This document shows positions 4,602-62,591 of a stretch of 64,000 nucleotides of DNA, one piece after another (the first letter of the stretch is position 1; each line of letters opens with the position of its first letter). The stretch is taken from the NCBI GenBank assembly GCA_029564595.1, contig JAKQPS010000157.1, positions 5,985 through 69,984 of the forward strand, written 5' to 3'. The DNA comes from a bacterium. GTDB lineage: Bacteria > UBP15 > UBA6099. Below the pieces are notes generated by a model. It was not told the DNA's origin. It worked only from the letters and a program-made list of their open reading frames with translations, and made no database searches. A program made the translations under genes and the position numbers.

Positions 4602-4672
4602 AACTGAAAAACCGAAAAAATCCGAAAATACCGCGAAAAAGTTTTCGCCTTTGGCGATTGGGGAAAAACCCT

Positions 4673-4702
4673 TTGAACCCGAATCCTTCATTAGGATTCG
4701 GG
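4673..4702 (+). repeat. Terminal fragment of the dispersed repeat element (copy C)
   Basis: Bases 4673-4701 match 62401-62429 at 28 of 29 positions (TTGAACCCGAATCC, then T or G, then TCATTAGGATTCGG). The unit contains its own small inverted repeat, GAATCC...GGATTC. Only this end is present; the sequence after 4702 does not resemble the rest of the element. It lies about 70 bases behind ftsY. Probably a decayed or incomplete copy. Confidence 0.75.
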
Positions 4703-45878: not shown

Positions 45879-46097
45879 TTGAACCCGGATTCTCCGATAG
45901 AGCCGGTGAACCGGGCCGATTGTTTATAGCGGCGAACTTCTTTGTTGCTGTCGTTGCCGTAGCATTTCGAGCCTAATTTATCACATATCGCGGCGGGAAT
46001 CGGAGTTCCTGCTACACAAAAAATGCGCCTTGTGTCTAGCATTTTATCAGTTATGAACAATCGCTCCTGAGTCCTAAAGATGGATTCGGACTGAAAC
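45879..46097 (+). repeat. Dispersed repeat element with imperfect terminal inverted repeats, copy A
   Basis: The element runs from TTGAACCCGGATTCTCCG to GGATTCGGACTGAAAC. Compared with the reverse complement of 62401-62591 it shares, in the same order, CCCGGATTC, ATAGAGCCG, GAACCGGG, ATAGCGGCGAACT, CGTTGCCG, AAATGCGCCTTG, TGAACAATCGCT and CCTAA-GA-GGATTCGG. The two ends are imperfect inverted repeats of each other. AAATGC and GCATTT (46021-46026, 46039-46044) form an internal hairpin that both full copies keep. It has no ORF. It is about 28 bp longer than copy B, mainly in the middle. Confidence 0.85.
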
Positions 46098-58634: not shown

Positions 58635-59231
58635 ATGTCCGAAACAACGATAAGACCAGCGACTCCCGGAGATGTCTCATTTTTTGTGTCCCTCGTTTAC
58701 TTCGCTTCTCCTGAATATCCGATAATTTTCGGAAGCCGATCAGACGCGACCATGAGTTCTCTGTTCAAGCGGCGTCGGAACCTTTTTAGCCACGAGTTTG
58801 CTCAAGTGGCGCTTGTGGATGGACGCCCGGCCGGTTTCATGCTCGCCTACGATTACAAACAGAAAAAAACTCTCGCGGCCTCCACCGCCGCTATGATTGC
58901 GATGACCGCCGGTTTTACTCTGTTAAAAAGCGTTCCGTTCCTAGTGAAGAACGCGGATGTGCTGGAAAGGATAGAACCCGGCGAATATTTTCTCAGCAAT
59001 ATAGTTGTTTGCGATGGTTTCCGCGGCCACGGCGTCGGGGCGGTTCTGATGAAGAAGCTTGAAAAGGACGCGCTCGCTCGCGGATGCGACAAAGTCGTTC
59101 TGGAAACCAACGCCGAAAACGCCCGCGCGATAAGCTTTTACGCTGGCCTCGGCTACTCCGTAGTGGATACGTTCTCGTTCGTTCTGTCCGGTGGAAAAAG
59201 AACTTACCGCCGCATGGCGAAAAATGTATAA
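58635..59231 (+). CDS. GNAT-family N-acetyltransferase
   Basis: 198 residues from ATG 58635; a TTG at 58611 in frame is less likely. TTIRPATPGDVSFFVSLVYF, then VALVDGRPAGFMLAYDYKQK, ILSNIVVCDGFRGHGVGAVL (acetyl-CoA-binding motif A, Q/RxxGxG/A as RGHGVG) and VVLETNAENARAISFYAGLG (motif B) define a GNAT fold. The region KTLAASTAAMIAMTAGFTLL in the middle is unusually hydrophobic for GNATs and may contact a membrane or lipid-like substrate. Its target is unknown. It follows pheT by 42 bases and may belong to that transcript. Confidence 0.85.
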   Translation: MSETTIRPATPGDVSFFVSLVYFASPEYPIIFGSRSDATMSSLFKRRRNLFSHEFAQVALVDGRPAGFMLAYDYKQKKTLAASTAAMIAMTAGFTLLKSVPFLVKNADVLERIEPGEYFLSNIVVCDGFRGHGVGAVLMKKLEKDALARGCDKVVLETNAENARAISFYAGLGYSVVDTFSFVLSGGKRTYRRMAKNV

Positions 59232-59315
59232 GGCAAGTAGCTAATAAGGCGGAAAGCATCAATAAACTTTATTTCCCAACTCTATAATTGTGCCGGTGAA
59301 AATATGGCGTTCAGT

Positions 59316-60170
59316 CTAAAAAATTATTCTTTTTCCGCTTGAAACCATCTCTTCCAACTCTTCGTCAGAGATTGAGCCGATTCTTTTGTGAATTCGGTTT
59401 ATATAATCGCTAAGCGACTCTCCTTCATTCAGGTAGTCCTCATAAAAAAAATCAGTTATAGCCAGATACGCGGCGAACAACTTCCTGTCCGTCATCCAGC
59501 CGGAAAACGAAGCCTCGTTCCCTTTCCTATCTATGAAGATGGAGCGAGGAATGCCTTTGACATTGTATTTATTTACAAGCGAGCCGGAATCGCGATCCAC
59601 ATCCACGCGTATCACCAAAGCTCTGTCTAAGAAATCAGCGTCAAAGCTCTCGACCGATTCCGTCATTTTTTTGCACCAACGGCACCAATCAGCTTCAAAG
59701 AAAAGAAACACCGGAACTCCTTTGCCGGCGAACCTATCATAGTTTGCTTGAGTATCGTACGAAACGTCCCGCGTCATCTCCATTATCGCGTCCACCCAAG
59801 CGCCGTCGATTTCTTCAGGCAGTTCATCGAGCCTCTCGCGTTGCTTTTCATCCCGTTCATCCAGCAGATAATAAAGTTTTTCGTAAGCAAAAAAACCGGT
59901 TTCCGGATTGTAGATTTCTTTATAACGCGCGTTGGTTGTCAGTCTCGCCAGATATTCCCAAAGGTCGGGATCCTCTTCATCTTCATCCAACATATCATTC
60001 ACACGCTCTAGCGCGTCTTCATAACGGCTGTCGTATATCATGTCGTCTATTATTTCTCGATCCGTTCTTTCAAGGCAGGAACAAGCGCTCGGCGCGACGT
60101 AAAACAAAAGCCCCGAAAAGAATAGAATCAAATAAAGAGAGGCGCTTTTTTTATAATTTGCAACATTCAT
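59316..60170 (-). CDS. Exported thioredoxin-fold protein
   Basis: 284 residues. The N-terminus has an export signal (SLYLILFFSGLLFYVAPSAC) ending in a cysteine that might be lipid-modified, although the lipobox is loose. The region 35-145 is acidic and helical (LDEDEEDPDLWEYLARLTTN). A thioredoxin-like domain follows: VPVFLFFEADWCRWCKKMTE with Cys163-x-x-Cys166, VIRVDVDRDSG, and the cis-proline loop KGIPRSIFID. It resembles periplasmic thiol-disulphide proteins; reducing or isomerising activity is inferred. Cysteine-rich exported proteins such as the pseudopilin at 37.5 kb would be potential clients. The ATG is weakly supported by a ribosome site. Confidence 0.82.
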   Translation of the reverse strand: MNVANYKKSASLYLILFFSGLLFYVAPSACSCLERTDREIIDDMIYDSRYEDALERVNDMLDEDEEDPDLWEYLARLTTNARYKEIYNPETGFFAYEKLYYLLDERDEKQRERLDELPEEIDGAWVDAIMEMTRDVSYDTQANYDRFAGKGVPVFLFFEADWCRWCKKMTESVESFDADFLDRALVIRVDVDRDSGSLVNKYNVKGIPRSIFIDRKGNEASFSGWMTDRKLFAAYLAITDFFYEDYLNEGESLSDYINRIHKRIGSISDEELEEMVSSGKRIIF

Positions 60171-60274
60171 TGTGTGTTGTCAGGTCTCAACATGATCGAA
60201 GAATCGTTCATTTGAACCGCGCGCGCCAATGCTCGAATATCTCGATCATGTCCCATTTCCGATTTTCTTTGCCG

Positions 60275-60303
60275 ATTATATACAATTGCGGGCTTAAGCG
60301 CAA
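60275..60303 (-). promoter_or_regulatory. Promoter of the thioredoxin-fold gene
   Basis: On the minus strand TTGCGC (60303-60298), 17-base spacer, TATAAT (60280-60275). It leaves about a 98-base leader to the ATG at 60170. Confidence 0.65.
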
Positions 60304-60373
60304 AACACAGCAAGTTTTTTAAAAGAACAAAATCAGCGAAAATTGAGTCGCGACATTTTTTGTTTTTTGGCGT

Positions 60374-60564: not shown

Positions 60565-62307
60565 ATGGGTGAGTCAAACTTGATATTTCCTTGTAAATTT
60601 CGCGACCGCTATGGCCGCAATGTTGAGATACGCCCCTACAGGGAAGGCGACTTCGATCAGCTTTTAGACATGTACGACCGCTTCGAGCCAAAAGCCGAGG
60701 CACAGGGATTGCCGCCCGCTGAAAAAGTCGTGCGCGACAACTGGGTCAAGGGCATTCTTCAAGGCGACTGGCATGTCATCGTCTGGGTGGATGAGAAGCT
60801 CGCGGGACAAGCCGCATTTTTCGACATGGGCGGCGGGCGCGCCGAATGGGGCATATTTATTCATCAGGATTATCAATCCGCCGGTATCGGAACAGTCCTT
60901 TCGAGTCTGGGAAGAGTGTGGGGGGCGGCTCTTGGGCTGACCGCCGCATGGCTGGTCGTGGACACCTGCAACGAGCGCGCGATAAGCGTTTTTAGAAAAT
61001 CCGGATACCGCATCAAGGGCCGCATGGACATGGAAGTCGATATGGACAGCGCGCTCAACGCCGAACACGGACAGCTTATCAGGGGCGAGCTTGCGACCCC
61101 GGACCCCGCGTCGTTTGCTGCGATTGTGGATGACATGCCGTTCTCGCGACCGGCGGAGAGCAAGCCTTGCCTGTTCATAAATTTCGACTTCGAACGAAGA
61201 CAGGCTCCCAATCTGCTGGACTGCGCGTGTCCGATAGTCACCTATAGGTCTTCCCTCACTAAGAGCAGTTGTCAGAGAAGCGGTCTTCTGGATGAATCTT
61301 TTGCTGCGGTGATAGAAGCCCCCACGGCGAATTTTGCGTCGGCGGCTGCTTGGCATGATCAAGGGTATCTGGCGAATCTGCTGCTTGCGGGGTCTGGAGT
61401 GACCACCGATGCGATGTCCGAGCGACGCATCGGAGCGCCCGACGCTCCCGGATTTATCGATGTCCACAAGCATGCATTGCGAAGTCTCGGAGCGACTCTT
61501 GCCGCCGCCCGCCTTCTGGTCGAGACCCCCGCGAGAGTGGCTTTCAATCCGTGCGGCGGGCAGCACGAGGCGGCTCCCGACCGCGCTTTCAGGCAGTGCT
61601 ACATCAACGATTCGGCTCTGGCTGTTCAATATCTTACGGCGAAAGGGCTTCGAGTTCTCTATCTCGATCTCGACGCGCACCACGGAGAAATCCTTCAGAA
61701 ATCTTTTGAGAATAATCCCAACGCTCTGACATGCTCGTTTTATGAGGCGGGCATCCCGCCCGGAGCCTCTGGCTCCGCGTCGGATATGGAGAGGTTTTTC
61801 GGAGACGGGCGGCCCGGAGGCCATGTCGATGTGCCTCTCCCCGCGAACACCAACGATGAGTTGTACAGATTGGCGTTCGAGAGCGTTGCCCCCGTGCTGG
61901 CCGGGAGGTTCAAGCCCGACATCGTGGTGGCGCAGATTTCTGCCGACACCATCGCCGCCGACAACACGTCGAAAATGTGCCTGACATGCGGCGGGTATTC
62001 AGAAATACTCGCGATGATACCGTCTCTAGCCCCAAAAGCGCTTTTCATCGGCGGAAACGCCGGCTCTCCGGACATAATAGCGCGGAGTTATGCCCTCGCA
62101 TGGTCTGCCCTGACGCGCGATTATTTCAATTCGATCAGCAGAGAAAACGGAGGCCCTCCCGTGCGGATGTGTCCGCCCGATCTCCAGAGCGGCGCTTTTA
62201 TAAGCGAAGAGACTATTCTGCTGCCCCCGGAAATATTTTCCAGAAATTGCGATTGCGTCAAAGACGTGCTGTATTCGTTGCGTAAGAGCAATCCAATGCT
62301 CAGGTGA
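60565..62307 (+). CDS. GNAT acetyltransferase fused to a histone-deacetylase/AcuC-like domain
   Basis: 580 residues. Residues 1-170 are a GNAT domain (VEIRPYREGDFDQLLDMYDR, IFIHQDYQSAGIGTVLSSLG with the acetyl-CoA loop QSAGIG, VVDTCNERAISVFRKSGYRI). Residues about 230-560 are an HDAC/AcuC-like domain: GFIDVHKHALRSLGATLAAA, FRQCYINDSALAVQYL, LYLDLDAHHGEILQKSF and VAQISADTIAADNTSKM. The zinc ligands Asp370, His372 and Asp461 are kept. The tandem His pair reads His334-Glu335 (GGQHE) and the catalytic Tyr region reads GGNAGS (496-501), Tyr replaced by Gly500. Writer and eraser in one chain recall AcuA/AcuC, which control acetyl-CoA synthetase; here the deacetylase half may be inactive, altered or a binding domain. 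No ribosome site is visible. Confidence 0.88.
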   Translation: MGESNLIFPCKFRDRYGRNVEIRPYREGDFDQLLDMYDRFEPKAEAQGLPPAEKVVRDNWVKGILQGDWHVIVWVDEKLAGQAAFFDMGGGRAEWGIFIHQDYQSAGIGTVLSSLGRVWGAALGLTAAWLVVDTCNERAISVFRKSGYRIKGRMDMEVDMDSALNAEHGQLIRGELATPDPASFAAIVDDMPFSRPAESKPCLFINFDFERRQAPNLLDCACPIVTYRSSLTKSSCQRSGLLDESFAAVIEAPTANFASAAAWHDQGYLANLLLAGSGVTTDAMSERRIGAPDAPGFIDVHKHALRSLGATLAAARLLVETPARVAFNPCGGQHEAAPDRAFRQCYINDSALAVQYLTAKGLRVLYLDLDAHHGEILQKSFENNPNALTCSFYEAGIPPGASGSASDMERFFGDGRPGGHVDVPLPANTNDELYRLAFESVAPVLAGRFKPDIVVAQISADTIAADNTSKMCLTCGGYSEILAMIPSLAPKALFIGGNAGSPDIIARSYALAWSALTRDYFNSISRENGGPPVRMCPPDLQSGAFISEETILLPPEIFSRNCDCVKDVLYSLRKSNPMLR

Positions 62308-62400: not shown

Positions 62401-62591
62401 TTGAACCCGAATCCGTCATTAGGATTCGGAAGCGATTGTTCAGAGCGGATGAAATGCGAGGCGCAAGGCGCATTTTTGCAGTGAATAGAACTTATGGTTC
62501 ATGAACAAAAAAATGTGGCGGCAACGAAGCAGTTCGCCGCTATGAAAAATCGCCCCGGTTCGTCGGCTCTATAGACGAATCCGGGTTGAAA
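62401..62591 (-). repeat. Dispersed repeat element with imperfect terminal inverted repeats, copy B
   Basis: 191 bases in opposite orientation to copy A. Its ends, TTGAACCCGAATCCGTC and (reverse complement of the other side) TTCAACCCGGATTCGTC, agree at 13 of 17 positions. The inner hairpin is AAATGCG (62452-62458) and CGCATTT (62469-62475). No ORF. The shared blocks with copy A are listed there; the outermost 29 bases also occur as copy C behind ftsY. Confidence 0.85.

Follow-up and report, generated by a model that had tools for sequence, protein, structure and literature searches.

A bacterial GNAT acetyltransferase fused to an AcuC-type histone deacetylase fold that most likely lacks catalysis

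The window analysed here is a 64,000-nucleotide stretch of contig JAKQPS010000157.1, from a bacterium of the UBA6099 lineage. It contains a gene in which a GNAT acetyltransferase and a protein of the histone deacetylase (HDAC) fold share one reading frame (Table 1). A preliminary description of the sequence had proposed both domains, and the corresponding Pfam profiles are matched above their curated cut-offs, Acetyltransf_1 at residues 57–148 (36.7 bits against 20.7) and Hist_deacetyl at residues 226–495 (143 bits against 27.9). The GNAT domain has the acetyl-CoA loop pattern R/Q-x-x-G-x-G/A, read as QSAGIG at residues 104–109, and alignment places it in a family with the motif MYxxFEPKxxAQGLPP. 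The HDAC half matches annotated AcuC in BLASTP (122 bits, 29% over 338 columns) and is by sequence of the AcuC/class I type. The neighbours of the gene are pheT, a second GNAT gene, a thioredoxin-like open reading frame, and cstA. A gene for acetyl-CoA synthetase (acs) is absent beside the locus itself, and acuB was not seen adjoining the fusion gene.

Table 1. Features of the fusion gene, in window positions and protein residues
Feature	Window position	Strand	Residues	Remarks
Fusion gene, GNAT acetyltransferase plus predicted AcuC-type pseudo-deacetylase	60565..62307	+	580 aa	ATG start, no N
GNAT domain	60622..61011	+	about 20–149	Pfam Acetyltransf_1 / Acetyltransf_3, family alignment
Family motif of GNAT domain, MYDRFEPKAEAQGLPP			36–51	
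Acetyl-CoA loop of GNAT domain, DYQSAGIGT			102–110	
Interdomain linker	61060..61161	+	166–199	Evolves fast (dN/dS about 0.4–0.7)
HDAC/AcuC-fold domain, predicted to be catalytically degenerate	61162..62124	+	about 200–520 plus tail	Pfam, AF2 model, BLASTP
His334 (kept; HDAC8 H142) and Glu335 (in place of catalytic second His, HDAC8 H143)	61564..61569	+	334–335	HDLP GGMHHA to GGQHEA
Arg343-Gln344 for tunnel Gly151-Phe152 of HDAC8	61591..61596	+	343–344	
Zinc ligands Asp370 and His372 (DAH)	61672..61680	+	370–372	
Pro398 for tunnel Phe208 of HDAC8	61756..61758	+	398	
Zinc ligand Asp461	61945..61947	+	461	
Gly500 at catalytic Tyr306 position	62062..62064	+	500	HDLP GGGGYHP to GGNAGSP, anchored on following AR

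Whether such a frame could be a join of two genes made in sequencing or assembly was a concern raised at the outset. The same unbroken frame, 580 aa long, 96% identical, without stops and with the same substitutions, recurs in two further metagenome-assembled genomes of the genus, on MWCD01000002.1 (bacterium ADurb.Bin236) and JAKQBV010000398.1 (loci L021 and L022), so the fusion is a real gene. These intact copies, together with their conserved upstream synteny, rule out an assembly join. The fusion is seen in one genus only, in three of the four genomes examined there; it is absent from the fourth (G002, 67% complete) and from three other genomes of the order. None was found among about 1,060 other sampled genomes or among 72,556 plasmid records; searches of the phyla of G038 and G046 covered one and three genomes and are uninformative. 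A search of mostly open-access literature did not find a GNAT–HDAC fusion in bacteria.

Two segments flanking the gene differ among the relatives. Both relatives lack about 180 bp (window 62406–62585) that lie between the fusion gene and cstA, and weaker copies of this segment occur at 45882–46089 (inverted) and 4672–4701; it resembles a dispersed intergenic repeat. The segment at 59226–60355, which adjoins the fusion and holds the thioredoxin-like frame (59316–60170, minus strand), is in L021 and missing from the same place in L022, and is a recent gain or loss.

The HDAC half keeps the metal site of the family and lacks both essential catalytic residues. Aligned to HDLP (1c3r, E 3e-29), it retains the zinc ligands Asp370, His372 and Asp461, which are kept in 78/78 of a panel of other bacterial and phage HDACs. 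The second histidine of the tandem pair is replaced by Glu335 at a place where the alignment is unambiguous; the same site is His in all 77 panel members in which it can be read. The catalytic tyrosine, present in 77 of the 78 and Phe in the remaining one, is Gly500 in the fusion, and a shifted alignment to phage-type HDACs puts Ser501 rather than Gly500 in that column, with no Tyr either way. These points all bear out the preliminary description. An alignment slip masking a second His or a Tyr was ruled out with HDLP, HDAC8, 27 AcuC-type proteins and the 78 mixed HDACs.

The changes extend beyond those that had been described. The residues of the acetyl-lysine tunnel corresponding to HDAC8 Gly151, Phe152 and Phe208 are lost in addition, a His of the tunnel region that is invariant or nearly so in other HDACs has become Tyr393, Asp183, the partner of H143, reads Glu375, and the Gly-rich loop is altered to GGNAG. 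Since the His that acts as general base, the catalytic Tyr and the walls of the tunnel have all gone, the HDAC half most likely lacks catalysis, to judge from its sequence. That a salt bridge between Glu335 and Arg343 closes the tunnel is only a guess.

The fold itself appears to have been preserved. An AF2 model of the HDAC half, built on a 19-sequence alignment, has a mean pLDDT of 74.5 and a pTM of 0.78, and compares with HDAC2 and HDAC8 at a Z of about 36 across 303–317 residues. Foldseek and VIA-align gave HDACs exclusively among the matches listed. The structure modelling proposed in the preliminary description thus predicts a complete arginase/deacetylase fold for the HDAC half. A model of the full-length fusion, made from five sequences, was poor (pLDDT 53) and was set aside.

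The two halves have had very different histories of change. In an alignment of 27 AcuC-type proteins, 54 columns are conserved at 95% or more; the HDAC half departs at 20 of these, as against 1–4 in eight control AcuC proteins. By the same criterion, applied to 50 relatives of the GNAT domain, the GNAT half keeps 15/17 conserved columns, its own changes being H82Q and F148Y. In the HDAC tree, the stem of the fusion measures 3.32 changes per site, where the end branches of its neighbours measure about 0.5 to 1.3; the GNAT stem of the fusion is 1.15 changes per site. The HDAC half is nested in the AcuC clade (support 99/95) and groups with Desulfobacterota-type GNAT-adjacent AcuCs and others (95/79), a placement that the long stem makes less certain. 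Rough estimates from three close genomes give dN/dS within the genus of 0.02–0.05 for the GNAT domain, 0.08–0.16 for the HDAC domain and 0.4–0.7 for the linker. The HDAC value indicates that the altered domain is still under selection. Read from these sequence comparisons, the HDAC half is conserved now, following a phase of fast change.

The relatives of the GNAT half suggest where the fusion came from. Across several phyla, this uncharacterised family consistently adjoins acs, a gene for an AcuC-type HDAC, or both (L023:1184–5078; L029, L030, L044, L068, L069, L085–L104), and such a neighbourhood, found for most of the GNAT relatives, is not found at the fusion locus. In L023, from the Desulfobacteraceae, the GNAT, AcuC and Acs genes lie in a row, and the frame of the stand-alone GNAT runs into the beginning of the AcuC gene, which is intact. 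Within roughly 1.5 kb on each side, many GNAT genes in the sample of that phylum are near acs and some near an HDAC gene, and five besides L023 adjoin an HDAC gene. In two further phylum-level groups, 4/4 and 15/16 of the GNAT loci adjoin an HDAC in which HH and Tyr are intact. The fused frame was not found in the sample of L023's phylum or in these two groups. The plain reading is that a writer–eraser gene pair around acetyl-CoA synthetase was fused once, in the lineage of the fusion. In the GNAT tree, the placing of the fusion with its nearest relatives has a support of 49/8, too little to establish that the two halves were inherited together from a single lineage.

In Bacillus, the place of this GNAT is taken by AcuA. 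The GNAT half is not AcuA by sequence: comparison with the GNAT at the AcuA position in Anoxybacillus gave 13 bits (E 3.2) in BLASTP and a probability of 2.8 in hhalign, which ruled that identification out. It nonetheless occupies the place of AcuA, as far as sequence and gene order go, and the MYxxFEPKxxAQGLPP family is likely a non-homologous stand-in for it.

Other erasers and a potential target are available in the same lineage. A sirtuin is found in 6/7 genomes of the lineage, and the window's genome (G000) also has one ordinary class-II-type HDAC, whose orthologue in G002 has intact residues, so an eraser besides the fused one is available. AMP-forming acs is complete in G002 and G003 and is a contig-end fragment in G000; the fragment includes PKTRSGKIMRR, the lysine motif carried by the Acs of the genus. 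About 1.2 kb separate a sirtuin gene and an acetoacetyl-CoA-synthetase-like gene in G000 and in relatives (G000:C131, L061, L073), which suggests that the sirtuin controls that ligase.

The reading that we favour, and consider on balance probable, is an Acs-type lysine acetyltransferase that carries a pseudo-deacetylase as a regulatory or docking domain, descended from a fused gene pair, with the sirtuin as eraser. Two adjacent genes, one for a GNAT lysine acetyltransferase directed at Acs and the other for a zinc deacetylase of the AcuC type, would have fused into a single frame. After or along with the fusion, the deacetylase half would have lost catalysis and its acetyl-lysine tunnel, retaining the fold and the zinc ligands. 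The GNAT half would acetylate the catalytic lysine of Acs or of a related ANL enzyme. The pseudo-deacetylase would work in cis, either docking a partner protein or the target itself, or sensing a ligand in its zinc pocket; in this way it would set the activity of the acetyltransferase. The acetyl mark would be removed by the NAD-dependent sirtuin of the same genome. The more specific proposal, that a bacterial AcuC fold without deacetylation has come to serve the protein acetyltransferase in its own chain, its former antagonist, as an allosteric sensor or as a module for docking substrates, seems to us about evenly balanced.

Beyond the loss of catalysis, we infer each of these steps, including the target, the regulatory role and the way in which tasks are divided between fusion and sirtuin. 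Acs is the probable target by analogy with GNAT relatives that are about a third identical, and H82Q and F148Y could mean a new one. A regulatory role for the HDAC half is most likely, on grounds of exclusion and of the selection acting on it. In the Bacillus system, AcuA forms a stable complex with AcsA and inhibits it ahead of acetylation (PMC11255334, PMC11910552), and AcuC is partnered by a regulatory protein, AcuB (PMC13039410, PMC13121692), which indicates that AcuC surfaces can bear regulation separate from catalysis.

Several other explanations need to be weighed. The preliminary description had suggested that the protein might toggle the acetylation of a target such as Acs or, alternatively, that its second domain might read acetyl-lysine. 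The connection to Acs is supported, with GNAT relatives adjoining acs and/or an AcuC-type HDAC in several groups, but a two-way toggle is not. A single chain does hold both folds, and relatives have an intact writer–eraser gene pair beside acs, but in the fusion the eraser is without both essential catalytic residues, as well as the tunnel walls, and HDAC8 is severely crippled by H143A or Y306F. We regard a truly bifunctional writer–eraser as the least probable of the alternatives. A reader would bind acetylated Acs or another acetylated protein in the zinc pocket without hydrolysis, a role that has been proposed for class IIa HDACs, and would couple recognition of the product to the writer. 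Asp370, His372 and Asp461 are kept along with His334, the Tyr is lost, and the domain is under purifying selection, all of which would suit such a role. The tunnel has been rebuilt, however, with Gly151 changed to Arg343, Phe152 to Gln344, Phe208 to Pro398 and a His to Tyr393 at sites that are invariant or nearly so in other HDACs. Class IIa HDACs retain these acetyl-lysine tunnel residues and change the Tyr (to His), so the alteration of the tunnel in the fusion weakens the case for a reader, which we consider unlikely.

An altered but active hydrolase, with Glu335 as general base in place of His and a changed pocket accepting another substrate, draws on the complete zinc site and on the position of the Glu, a residue established as the base in other zinc hydrolases such as LpxC or those of the thermolysin type. 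There is no visible replacement for the oxyanion-stabilising Tyr, however, the Asp183 partner and the Gly-rich loop have changed too, and the loss of so many conserved columns together with very fast evolution fits loss of function better than refitting, which makes continued hydrolysis improbable. The same long stem and the many conserved residues lost could be taken to mean that the HDAC half is decaying, passive baggage behind a working acetyltransferase. We find this decidedly improbable given the contrast in dN/dS between the HDAC domain and the linker across three genomes, and given a length of exactly 580 aa, free of stops, in all three. Some HDAC-fold enzymes use acetylpolyamines as substrates (PMC11532494), and the GNAT half has sub-threshold matches to spermidine acetyltransferase models (28–31 bits against a cut-off of 218). 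An acetyltransferase for polyamines or other amines fused to a former acetylpolyamine amidohydrolase is nevertheless highly improbable, as the HDAC half clusters with AcuC/class I proteins and it is acs, not polyamine genes, that adjoins the GNAT relatives.

An acetyltransferase under the control of a pseudo-deacetylase, as favoured here, has partial parallels in known systems. Class IIa HDACs (HDAC4/5/7/9) likewise combine an HDAC fold and a kept zinc site with loss of the catalytic Tyr; there Tyr is changed to His and the rest of the pocket is kept, whereas the fusion has Tyr to Gly, His143 to Glu and a changed tunnel, and is bacterial and joined to an acetyltransferase. The cNMP-GNAT protein MtPat joins a GNAT that acetylates proteins to a regulatory domain, a cyclic-nucleotide sensor. 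The ACT-GNAT protein AAPatA of actinobacteria (PMC6434083) is built in the same way, with an amino-acid sensor. In the fusion the second domain is a predicted pseudo-deacetylase instead. HDAC10, as described in PMC11532494, similarly joins an inactive HDAC fold to an acetylation enzyme, but its partner is an active deacetylase rather than an acetyltransferase. A counterpart in gene content is the acuABC system of Bacillus (PMC13039410, PMC11255334, PMC13121692), where a GNAT and an AcuC-type deacetylase also act around acetyl-CoA synthetase. There AcuA and AcuC are two separate active enzymes, while the fusion is one chain with an apparently dead AcuC half and a GNAT unlike AcuA in sequence.

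According to a survey of classical deacylases in bacteria, the catalytic Tyr motif is conserved in robust deacetylases and no bacterial enzyme was found in which this Tyr has become His, a statement that does not cover Tyr to Gly (PMC11532494). The fusion is possibly the first bacterial HDAC fold to be retained without activity. If true, this would bring pseudo-enzymes into the classical deacylase family, and a writer would be governed by what remains of its eraser. The fusion also serves as a Rosetta stone, linking a widespread uncharacterised GNAT family to AcuC and the control of acetyl-CoA synthetase, a link that is directly testable in the intact relatives.

A few further observations concern related proteins. 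A PAS/histidine-kinase-like protein of at least 643 aa (L053:1–1932), encoded upstream of an isocitrate-dehydrogenase-like gene, has the same type of GNAT fused at its C-terminus, and this acetyltransferase is possibly under two-component control. The ordinary HDAC of the window's genome (G000:C86:42998–43855; L078) lies in an open frame of 717 aa, compared with 401–410 aa in relatives. HDAC-like deacetylases with intact catalytic residues and the motif FNPQGAKHHAQ are encoded on 45 viral contigs from IMG/VR (L105–L149), some longer than 130 kb.
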